From NCBI GenBank assembly GCA_031316315.1, contig JADBEO010000036.1:1-41684 (forward strand): a DNA stretch of 41,684 nt. The letters are read 5' to 3'. Each line of letters starts with the position of its first letter. The first letter of the stretch is position 1. Shown piece after piece: positions 23,728-29,032 of the stretch. Source of the DNA: Chelatococcus sambhunathii (GTDB lineage: Bacteria > Pseudomonadota > Alphaproteobacteria > Rhizobiales > Methylopilaceae). The notes beneath the pieces were generated by a model. The model saw nothing but the letters and a program-made list of their open reading frames with translations. It did not search any database and had not been told where the DNA came from. Position numbers and translations under genes: made by a program.

Positions 23728-26397
23728 CTACTCCGCCGCGATCTTCTGCGCGCGCCGGGGGTCGTAGTTCAGCACCGGGGCGAGCCACCTCTCCATCTCG
23801 GCGAGGTCGTAGCCCTTGCGCGCGGCGTAGTCGGCGACCTGGTCGCGATCGATCTTGCCAAGGCCGAAATAGCGGCTCTCGGGGTGTGAGAAGTAGAGCC
23901 CGGAGACGGCCGATCCCGGCCACATGGCGTAGCTTTCGGTGAGCTTCAGGCCGATCGCGTTCGGCGCGTCGAGCAGGTCGAACAGCACGCCCTTCTCGGT
24001 GTGGTCGGGCTGCGCGGGATAGCCGGGCGCCGGGCGGATGCCGTCATAGCTCTCGGCGATCAGCTCCTCGTTCGAGAAGCTTTCGCCGGCGGCGTAGCCC
24101 CAGTGCTCCTTGCGGACCTGCTCGTGCAGCCACTCCGCGCCGGCTTCCGCCAGACGATCGGCGAGCGCCTTGGCGAGGATGCCGCCATAGTCGTCGTTGG
24201 CGCGCGCAAAGCGCTGGCTCATCGCCTCCTCGCCGATTCCGGCCGTGACGGCGAAGCCGCCGACATAGTCCTCGCCGTCGGGCGCGACGAAGTCGGCCAG
24301 CGCGAGGTTCGGGCGATCCTTGCCGCGCGCCATCTGCTGGCGGAGCGTATGAAGCGTCGCGAGTTTTTCCGAACGGCTCTCGTCCTTGTAGAGGTCGATG
24401 TCGTCGCCGTTCTGGTTCGCCGGCCAAAAGCCGATGACGGCCTTGGCCTCGAGCCATTTTTCGTCCGCCATCTGGCGCAGCATGGCGGTCGCGTCGTCGT
24501 AGAGGTTCTTCGCCGCCTCGCCGTACTTCTCGTCCTTGAGAATCTGCGGGTAGCGACCCTTGAGCTCCCAGGTCTGGAAGAACGGCGTCCAGTCGATATA
24601 GGGGAACAGCGTCTCGATCGGGATGTCGATGACTTTGGTCCCGAGGAAGCTCGGCTTCGGCTGCACCTTCGAGACGTCGATCGCGAGCCGGTTCTCGCGG
24701 GCGGCCGCGATCGAGGCGCGGACCTTGTCCTCCTGCGCGCGGGCGTGCTGTTCGGCGAGACGGGCGTATTCCGTCTGCACGTCGGCGACGTAGGCCGCCT
24801 TGTTGTCGTTCGAGAGCAGCTGCGAGACGACGCCGACGGCGCGGCTGGCGTCGAGCACATGCACGGCCTGCCCGCGATCATAGGCGGGGTGGATTTTCAC
24901 AGCGGTGTGGATCTTCGACGTCGTCGCGCCGCCGATCAGCAGCGGCACGCTAAAGCCCTCGCGCTCCAGTTCGGAGGCGACCGTCACCATCTCGTCGAGC
25001 GAGGGGGTGATCAGGCCGGACAGGCCGATGACGTCGACCTCCTCCTTGCGCGCCGTCTCCAGGATCTTCTGGACCGGGACCATCACGCCGAGGTCGATCA
25101 CCTCGTAGTTGTTGCACTGGAGCACGACGCCGACGATGTTCTTGCCGATGTCGTGGACGTCGCCCTTCACGGTGGCCATCAGGATCTTGCCGGCGGCCTT
25201 GCGCTGGGTGAGGCCCTGCTCCTCCTTCTCCTTCTCCATGAAGGGCATGAGGTAGGCCACCGCCTGCTTCATGACGCGGGCCGACTTCACGACCTGCGGC
25301 AGGAACATCTTGCCGGAGCCGAACAGGTCGCCGACGACGTTCATGCCGTCCATCAGCGGGCCTTCAATGACATGGAGCGGACGCGCGGCCTTGGCGCGCG
25401 CTTCCTCGGTGTCGGCCTCGATGAATTCGGTGATGCCGTGGACCAGCGCATGGGCGAGCCGCTTCTCGACAGGCTGTTCGCGCCATTTGGTGTCGACGAC
25501 GCGGGCCTCCTGCTTGCCGCCCTTGAACTTGTCGGCGGCGGCCAGCAGCCGGTCGGTCGCATCCGGCCGGCGGTTCAGCACCACGTCCTCGGCGAGCTCG
25601 CGCAGCTCCGGATCGATGTCGTCATAGACGGGCAGGGCGCCGGCGTTGACGATGCCCATATCCATGCCGGCGTTGATGGCGTGGTACAGGAACACCGAGT
25701 GCATCGCCGCGCGCACCGGCTCGTTGCCTCTGAAGGCGAAAGATAGGTTCGACACGCCGCCGGAGATATGGGCGTAAGGCAGGTTCTCGCGGATCCACCT
25801 GGTCGCTTCGATGAAGTCGACGCCGTAGTTCGAGTGCTCCTCGATGCCGGTCGCGACCGCAAAGATGTTCGGGTCGAACACGATGTCCTGCGGCGGGAAG
25901 CCGACCTGCTCGGTCAGGATCTTGTAGGCCCTGGCGCAGATCTCGGTCTTGCGCTTGAAGGTGTCGGCCTGGCCCGTCTCGTCGAAGGCCATGACGACCA
26001 CGGCGGCGCCGTAGGCGCGCACCTTGCGAGCCTGCGCCAGAAAACTCTCCTCGCCCTCCTTGAGCGAGATCGAGTTCACGATCGGCTTGCCCTGCACGCA
26101 TTTCAGGCCCGCTTCGATCACCGACCACTTCGACGAGTCGATCATCAGCGGCACGCGCGCGATGTCGGGCTCGGAGGCGATCAGGTTGAGGAACTCGACC
26201 ATCGCCTTCTCCGAGTCGAGAAGGCCCTCGTCCATGTTGACGTCGAGGATCTGCGCGCCGTTCTCGACCTGCTCGCGCGCGACGTCGAGCGCCGCTGCGT
26301 AGTCGCCGTTGGTGATCAGCTTCCTGAACTTGGCGGAGCCCGTGACGTTGGTGCGCTCACCGACATTGACGAAGCTCTGGGCGGCGGAGGTCGTCAT
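23728..26397 (-). CDS. metH: Methionine synthase, methyltetrahydrofolate/cobalamin/activation part (split MetH)
   Basis: 889 residues covering everything in MetH after the homocysteine domain. Residues about 5-290 form the methyltetrahydrofolate-binding barrel ([20 protein letters not shown]). A cap (about 300-395) and the B12-binding fold follow, with GDVHDIGKN at 412-420; His415 is the lower axial ligand of cobalamin. The activation domain (about 560-889) has the SAM-binding RPAPGYP. It transfers methyl from methyltetrahydrofolate via cobalamin to homocysteine bound by the separate protein at 26816-27871. All motifs are intact. The ATG overlaps the stop of a 141-residue unknown gene (ATGA, 26394-26397); the AGGA ribosome-binding sequence lies inside that gene. 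Confidence 0.95.
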
Positions 26398-26819
26398 AAG
26401 TAGTTCCTGTTCGTCCAGGGAGACCGGGCAGGGTCATAAGGCAATTCGGTAGCCAGAACTTCCAGTCGCTCGATTAGAGCGGGAAAAACACCGATCTTCA
26501 GCGACGTCAGCCACGCTTCGCTGGAGTGACGCTCAGCGCGCTGCAGATGTGTAGATGCCATGGCAACATCTTCTAAGTCCGCCGACCGATACCATGTCGG
26601 ATCGTTGGGCCTGACATCACGAGACTGAACCCATCCGATGTTGTCCGTCGGGACCACGGTGATATTTGCGGCCTTGAGCAACGCCCAAAGTCGCTCGATC
26701 AACTCCCCATACTCCACATGTTGATCATTCCACCGGCCAAGACTGACTTGATCCGCTGTCATCAGTTCCTGACGAAGCGTGTTCGCTTCGCGCCTCCAGG
26801 ACGCCGGATCGAACGTCAC
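26394..26819 (-). CDS. Unknown 141-residue protein inserted between the two metH halves
   Basis: Not recognised. The product is soluble, mixed alpha/beta by appearance, with five Trp and segments such as [20 protein letters not shown] and [15 protein letters not shown]; no signal peptide, membrane segment or catalytic motif. It starts with GTG overlapping the TGA of the homocysteine-domain gene (GTGA, 26816-26819), and its own TGA overlaps the ATG of the cobalamin part (ATGA, 26394-26397). It must therefore be translated with both. Composition differs from its neighbours: 67 of 120 bases are G or C at 26461-26580, against 77 of 120 at 26161-26280 in metH. A late insertion into the operon is likely; a role as MetH partner or an unrelated cargo gene are both possible. 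Confidence 0.72.
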
Positions 26820-28113: not shown

Positions 28114-28117
28114 CGGA

Positions 28118-29032
28118 TCACGCCGCCGCCTTCTTGCCGACGCCGGCGGAGGGCCTCAGGCCCAGCAGGTGGCAAACGGCGTAGACGAGGTCGGCCTTGT
28201 TCATCGTGTAGAAGTGGAAGTCGTTGACCCCGTGGTCGACGAGGTCGAACACCTGCTCGGCCGCGACCGCCGCGGCGATCAGCTGGCGGGTCTGCGGGTC
28301 GTCGTCGAGGCCCTCGAAGCGCGAGGCGAACCACTCCGGCACGCTCGCGCCGGTGCGCCGCGCGAAGTTCGCGGTCTGCTTGAAGTTCGAGACCGGCACG
28401 ATGCCCGGAACGATCGGGATGTGGATGCCGCGCTTGCGGGCCTCGTCGACGTAGCGGAGGTAGTGCCCGTTGTCGAAGAAGAACTGGGTGATGGCCCGGT
28501 TCGCGCCGGCGTCGACCTTGGCCTTGAGCACGTCGAAATCGGCGTCGAGGCTCGGGCTCTCGGGATGCATCTCCGGATAGGCCGAGACCGACAGCTCGAT
28601 TTCGGGCGCGCGCTTGCGGATGCCGGCCACGAGGTCCGCGGTCGACTTGTAGCCGTCCGGATGCGGCTCGAAGGCCGTGCCGACGCCGCCCGCCGGATCG
28701 CCGCGCAGCGCCACGATGTGGCGCACGCCTACCTCCCGATAGCTGTCGACCACCGCGTCGACCTCATCCTTGCTGGCCGAGACGCAGGTGAGGTGCGCCG
28801 CCGGCGGAATGTCGGTCTCCTTGACCATGCGCGCGACGGTGGCGTGCGTGCGCTCGCGGGTCGAGCCGCCGGCGCCGTAGGTCACCGACATGAAGGTCGG
28901 GCCGAGCGGCGCGAGGCGCTCGACGGAGCGCCACAGCGACTCCTCCATCTCGGGCGTCTTCGGCGGAAAGAACTCGAAGGAGACGCGGATGGGACGCCGG
29001 GCGGCGCGGGACAGGCGGGCGTTGGGCATCAT
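28118..29032 (-). CDS. metF: Methylenetetrahydrofolate reductase
   Basis: FAD enzyme reducing 5,10-methylenetetrahydrofolate to 5-methyltetrahydrofolate, the methyl donor for MetH encoded downstream. The 304-residue product has the conserved SFEFFPPKTPEMEESLW at the N-terminus, FMSVTYGAGGSTRERT, HLTCVSASKDEV, ALRGDPAGG, SVSAYPEMHPE and ITQFFFDNGHYLRYVDEAR. Length is normal. The ATG overlaps the stop of the upstream ArsR-methyltransferase gene (ATGA, 29029-29032). The gene is second in a leftward operon dedicated to methionine regeneration. Confidence 0.96.
   Translation of the reverse strand: MMPNARLSRAARRPIRVSFEFFPPKTPEMEESLWRSVERLAPLGPTFMSVTYGAGGSTRERTHATVARMVKETDIPPAAHLTCVSASKDEVDAVVDSYREVGVRHIVALRGDPAGGVGTAFEPHPDGYKSTADLVAGIRKRAPEIELSVSAYPEMHPESPSLDADFDVLKAKVDAGANRAITQFFFDNGHYLRYVDEARKRGIHIPIVPGIVPVSNFKQTANFARRTGASVPEWFASRFEGLDDDPQTRQLIAAAVAAEQVFDLVDHGVNDFHFYTMNKADLVYAVCHLLGLRPSAGVGKKAAA

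Follow-up and report, generated by a model that had tools for sequence, protein, structure and literature searches.

The 41,684-nt stretch analyzed here (hereafter the window) is contig JADBEO010000036.1 of Chelatococcus sambhunathii (assembly GCA_031316315.1). On its minus strand lies a sahR-metF-metH operon, in which a 141-codon open reading frame (ORF) of the DUF6508 family separates the two halves of a split methionine synthase gene, metH-N and metH-C (Table 1). Neighboring genes overlap by four bases at the sahR/metF, 81-aa ORF/metH-N, metH-N/DUF6508 and DUF6508/metH-C boundaries. The stop codon of metH-N and the start of the DUF6508 gene share GTGA (26819-26816), while the stop of the latter and the start of metH-C share ATGA (26397-26394), with AGGA preceding the metH-C ATG. 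The 81-aa ORF likewise overlaps the metH-N start by ATGA.

The initial annotation of positions 23728-29032 had described the metH halves as separate, intact proteins and the intervening ORF as overlapping both. The ORFs, Pfam domains, motifs and boundary sequences all agree with this description; the interval also holds metF and the 81-aa ORF, which had gone unmentioned. The S-methyl_trans domain of MetH-N is complete (PF02574 positions 1-283 of 283, 329.9 bits). The pterin, cap, cobalamin and activation domains stand together on the second protein, MetH-C, in which Pterin_bind, B12-binding_2, B12-binding and Met_synt_B12 each exceed the Pfam cut-off. Expected MetH motifs were found in both halves and presumably have their catalytic roles there. 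We also take the first gene of the operon to encode a SahR-like regulator. A match to this sahR-like gene and metF occur in the same stretch in 48 of 49 genomes. The name is applied by analogy to the ArsR-type helix-turn-helix (HTH)/methyltransferase gene on the basis of PMC4239095.

Table 1. Genes of the sahR-metF-metH operon in the window.
Gene	Coordinates	Strand	Features
sahR-like gene	29029..30054	-	ArsR-type HTH + S-adenosylmethionine (SAM)-methyltransferase fusion; Pfam HTH_5, Methyltransf_11; heads the run
metF	28118..29032	-	Methylenetetrahydrofolate reductase; Pfam MTHFR, 309 bits
81-aa ORF	27868..28113	-	Without Pfam family; in the metF/metH-N gap
metH-N	26816..27871	-	Homocysteine S-methyltransferase half of split MetH; Pfam PF02574; NCBIfam metH positions 2-337
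DUF6508 gene	26394..26819	-	141 aa, GTG start; PF20118, E-value (E) 6e-9
metH-C	23728..26397	-	Folate/cobalamin/activation half of split MetH; PF00809, PF02607, PF02310, PF02965; NCBIfam metH positions 339-1181

Split MetH enzymes of two or three parts are described in PMC7857596, and a three-part MetH of Phaeobacter in PMC5764234; the latter enzyme is taken up again in PMC12366255. As in the two-part enzyme, the homocysteine domain and the folate/cobalamin/activation part are separate, complete proteins in the window (as judged from the genes), but in the window species and Hansschlegelia zhihuaiae an extra gene lies between them. Among the matches listed for split methionine synthase in the open-licence literature, no title concerned junction inserts; no paper naming DUF6508 and none on Hansschlegelia with methionine synthase was found in the same literature.

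The intervening ORF had been regarded as being of an unknown kind, but it belongs to a named family of proteins of unknown function, DUF6508 (PF20118). The predicted protein scores 36.3 bits against a gathering cut-off of 23.6, and the copy at the same place in H. zhihuaiae S 113 (locus L002, genome G001) scores 41.9. The match of the window protein is partial, covering profile positions 39-127 of 129; a full-length match is not a Pfam requirement, and 4 of the 10 other members scanned (the H. zhihuaiae copy aside) also match in the C-terminal part only. The two junction copies share 89% protein identity, with 0.052 nonsynonymous (dN) and 0.426 synonymous (dS) substitutions per site (NG86; dN/dS about 0.12) and with 10, 6 and 33 differences at the first, second and third codon positions, respectively. 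Between the same genomes dS is 0.415 for metH-N and 0.318 for metH-C (first 430 codons; NG86). These values indicate that the DUF6508 gene is under purifying selection and has diverged like its flanks. A sense ORF of at least 130 codons was present in 16 of 5000 simulated stretches of the same length (first-order Markov model). By these sequence measures the 141-codon ORF is a real gene, translated and constrained. AlphaFold2, supplied with a two-sequence alignment, returned a helical model with a mean pLDDT (predicted local distance difference test) of 45.5, a quality too low for fold comparison. The window protein had no tblastn match among plasmids or phages, no sequence match in the PDB and no family match in PADLOC, PHROGs or NCBIfam, and no relative was found in viral contigs with the two alignments used.

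Protein and family searches detected the DUF6508 gene in two of 150 relatives, the window genome included. Split metH is present in all 13 genomes of the genus that were searched and the DUF6508 gene in two of them, which is not the co-occurrence expected of a MetH accessory subunit. The eleven congeners without it have a metH-N/metH-C gap of some 23 to 178 bp, which could not house the gene, and four genomes from a second genus of the family have metH halves with an overlap of a few bases. A close relative with adjacent halves and no gene between them had been named beforehand as evidence against a partner of MetH, and G010 is such a genome: its metH halves lie about 45 bp apart (spacer to ATG), and a tree of the two halves, which describes this locus and not the species, makes it the sister of the window genome (G000) with 100% bootstrap. 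In alignment with its G008 counterpart, the G010 spacer outscores every one of 1000 shuffles, and this homology makes it look like the original empty site and not a deletion scar. The placement of H. zhihuaiae in the same tree is weak (68-75% support). As alternatives, either the DUF6508-bearing junction may have moved between lineages or G010 may have regained an empty junction; when G000 was tested for mosaicism with G001 and G010, no clear recombination breakpoint emerged.

On a wider scale, the DUF6508 family is rare: 3 of the 385 class genomes and 4 of the 398 phylum genomes searched have it (both counts include the window's own), as do 2 of 14 control genomes. The G+C content at third codon positions (GC3) of the window gene is 0.62 against 0.92 in both metH-N and metH-C, so the gene looks foreign to its operon; metF stands at 0.95, the sahR-like gene at 0.90 and the 81-aa ORF at 0.72. 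From its sequence and distribution, we infer that the DUF6508 gene arrived laterally.

The same junction is occupied by other genes elsewhere in the order. Split-metH loci were sampled from the order, though not exhaustively, so that the total of 55 loci showing both halves and the insert counts are lower bounds. Eight further loci were left out, among them L052, L063, L065 and L067 at contig ends, of which L065 and L067 read on into the C part and are fused. Inserts were scored only if a Pfam family could be named, so that family-less ORFs of 57 to 80 codons (e.g. in L046, L051 and L085) are uncounted, while L066 and L072, in which metH is split somewhat earlier, are both counted. Gap lengths run up to the site that aligns with residue 1 of MetH-C, from which the true start may differ by a few bases. 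Twelve of the 55 loci have an occupied junction, with inserts of five Pfam families: DUF6508 (2), SAM methyltransferase (4), PIN-like (3), DUF559 (2) and DUF6998 (1). Each PIN-like insert has another ORF upstream (77, 148 and 78 aa), and one DUF559 insert comes with a further 228-aa ORF. One PIN protein exceeds the Pfam cut-off of 23.6 (31.3) and two fall below it (20.4 and 23.3). GC3 of the insert is lower than that of the adjoining metH-N in all ten inserts measured. At the remaining 43 loci the gap ranges from -13 to 291 bp, with palindromic repeats in some.

The 4-base overlap with the stop codon of metH-N recurs in the DUF6998 insert and in three of the four methyltransferase inserts; for the remaining methyltransferase the start is uncertain. 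Because unrelated inserts adopt this arrangement, start/stop overlaps say little in favor of partnership, and in an operon of a core enzyme they are on their own no evidence of a physical partner. The DUF6508 gene resembles these accessory genes (PIN, DUF559, DUF6998 and methyltransferase) in its position and, in the case of the methyltransferase and DUF6998, in its flush overlap, but it belongs to a different family and, unlike the methyltransferase, has not been seen to recur across families. The empty site and the junctions bearing DUF6508, methyltransferase, PIN, DUF559 and DUF6998 form a natural series in which the entry of genes into conserved operons can be studied. At the other four of the eight loci left out (L070, L076, L078 and L090), a split-type metH-N was found with no metH-C in about 4.5 kb downstream; the halves may be unlinked there.

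Genes of known families also occur between metF and metH-N, in 6 of 48 genomes: a Phd and PIN pair (1), DUF559 (2, one antisense), a glyoxalase-like gene (2) and an AAA ATPase gene (1). The 48 exclude G014 to G017 and G064, for which there is no upstream stretch, G635, where the contig starts, and G072, in which no metF occurs within 3 kb. In seven of the 48 this gap contains a short sense-strand ORF (73 to 87 codons); G011, whose gap has an antisense ORF and a sense ORF of just 44 codons, is not among them. Homologues of the 81-aa ORF of the window were identified only in H. zhihuaiae (40%) and G004 (35%) among 61 genomes, its own included, and they too sit between metF and metH-N. Guest ORFs are present in both gaps of the window operon, and also in H. 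zhihuaiae. As the metF/metH-N gap takes genes as well, the split point of metH is not singular. The metH-N/metH-C junction as a special hot spot was rejected (11 versus 6 of 48 genomes, Fisher p 0.28, a value that serves as a guide only since the genomes are not independent).

Although its score over the curated cut-off places the window protein in the DUF6508 family, it differs from other members in its partial profile match, its setting inside a metabolic operon and its weak similarity to them, the best two matches in a comparison of 11 sequences reaching about E 1e-5. A stronger family member, from G413, matched 10 records among plasmids and none among phages, and five of the ten plasmid contexts were viewed. 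On a plasmid of Mesorhizobium onobrychidis (L092:4182-5435), DUF6508 forms the C-terminal part of a 417-aa fusion protein; the N-terminal portion of this protein has matches to PADLOC UzuA (E 5.5e-74) and GIY-YIG. The Croceicoccus gene has a HEPN gene on one side and a ParD/ParE pair on the other, and that of Marinobacter is located on a conjugative plasmid, about 3.5 kb from a tyrosine recombinase gene. In G898 (L142:6500-14156) the DUF6508 gene is the first in an array of attC-like repeats, comprising eight copies of an 85-nt repeat with at least 60% identity. The repeat directly 3′ of this gene has paired ends on folding (z -1.87; 8 of 200 shuffles equal), and we read the array as an integron, although no integrase was sought; its DUF6508 homologue had no plasmid match. 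Recurrence of the gene beside split metH had been proposed as support for a functional partner, but neither a metH half nor metF was detected (E 1e-5) in any of ten DUF6508 stretches (five genomic and five from plasmids, 10 to 16 kb each). One of these, L079, contains a partial match to the sahR-like protein (E 6e-6).

Its patchy presence, foreign codon bias and the other genes found in the same junction argue that the DUF6508 gene is very probably laterally acquired mobile cargo at the metH-N/metH-C junction of the conserved sahR-metF-metH operon, which was one of the suggestions of the initial annotation, and that it is probably not a part of methionine synthase. In such an operon, under a SahR-like regulator, ribosomes finishing metH-N at TGA would restart at the overlapping GTG to produce the 141-aa protein, and would then restart at the ATG of metH-C. 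The flush fit between TGA and ATG would couple translation of the insert to that of both halves, so that it would be expressed alongside methionine synthesis and would be hard to lose. MetH-N and MetH-C would assemble without it, as they must in the eleven DUF6508-free congeners if the enzyme is active there.

Several observations sit less easily with mobile cargo. Within the genus the gene is known at the metH junction alone, and folding of the window junction is not unusual (z 0.32; a fold test, with no attC scan). It is intact in two species with flanks of similar synonymous divergence, and has therefore been retained for some reason. Coupled translation would fit a local role too, and the recurrence of the methyltransferase at the junction in three families means that not every insert need be a passenger.

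As to what the cargo might do, the fusion of a homologue to a UzuA-like GIY-YIG protein and the other contexts lead us to a best guess, offered tentatively, that DUF6508 is an accessory factor tied to mobile elements or phage defence. We are doubtful of a broader scheme, in which both operon junctions would be recurrent docking slots in the order for small, often nuclease-, toxin-antitoxin- or defence-like genes, set close or flush to stops and starts for coupled expression and protection from loss, with DUF6508 as a defence-linked passenger.

A looser tie to methionine or SAM metabolism, with DUF6508 as, for example, a SAM- or S-adenosylhomocysteine-linked regulator placed in a SahR-controlled operon for co-regulation, is improbable. 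A SahR-like gene does head the run, and some junction inserts elsewhere are SAM methyltransferases, recurring in three families, but DUF6508 homologues were observed in unrelated contexts, and the other occupants of the two gaps are PIN, DUF559, DUF6998, AAA ATPase and glyoxalase-like genes, for which we know of no link to methionine. It is highly improbable that DUF6508 serves split MetH in two species as a lineage-specific accessory subunit, holding the halves together or aiding cobalamin loading: the position of the gene with 4-nt overlaps on both sides, the purifying selection and the flank-like synonymous divergence would fit it, but eleven split-metH congeners do without the gene, no metH was found near it in the ten stretches tested, unrelated inserts make the same overlap, and the halves are adjacent in many other split-metH genomes.

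The methyltransferase insert presents a different picture. Of 249 genomes searched in the order, 59 contain the family of the L043 protein (E 1e-20). Where both places are known (42 genomes), the methyltransferase gene lies within 10 kb of metH-N in 4 and not in 38; in the other 17 genomes it is between the metH halves in 4 (G048, G604, G545 and G069), and no metH was found in the methyltransferase stretch of 13. The gene thus occupies the junction in 8 of the 59 genomes (L043, L044, L045, L071, L149, L150, L165 and L166), in families f20, f32 and f2; four of these loci are extra to the 55-locus count. In a tree of 24 methyltransferases, the junction copies form two groups, one of f20 (3) and one of f32 and f2 (5), the latter with 100% support and 67-82% identity. 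No sampled non-junction methyltransferase falls inside either group, and the node separating the two has 64% support. For the two junction proteins tested, the best NCBIfam match was CpaM, a corrinoid-protein-associated methyltransferase, far under the cut-off.

Related methyltransferases thus entered the metH junction or persisted in it, perhaps on two occasions. Recurrence in three families is something passengers need not show, so the methyltransferase is possibly more than a passenger and is a candidate for a real split-MetH partner in the three families; a possible working tie to the enzyme merits attention. This recurrence concerns the split MetH of f20, f32 and f2 and not DUF6508. DUF6508 is probably one more passenger gene; the two-slot operon and the recurrent methyltransferase are the parts that may interest specialists.

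Palindromic repeats of the type GTCCCGGCC...GGCCGGGAC were noted in the metH spacers of relatives (L008 and L015). A similar palindromic pair, GCCGGGCTTGACCCGGC / GCCCGGATCAAGTCCGGGC, is located just past metH-C in the window, at about 23620-23710.

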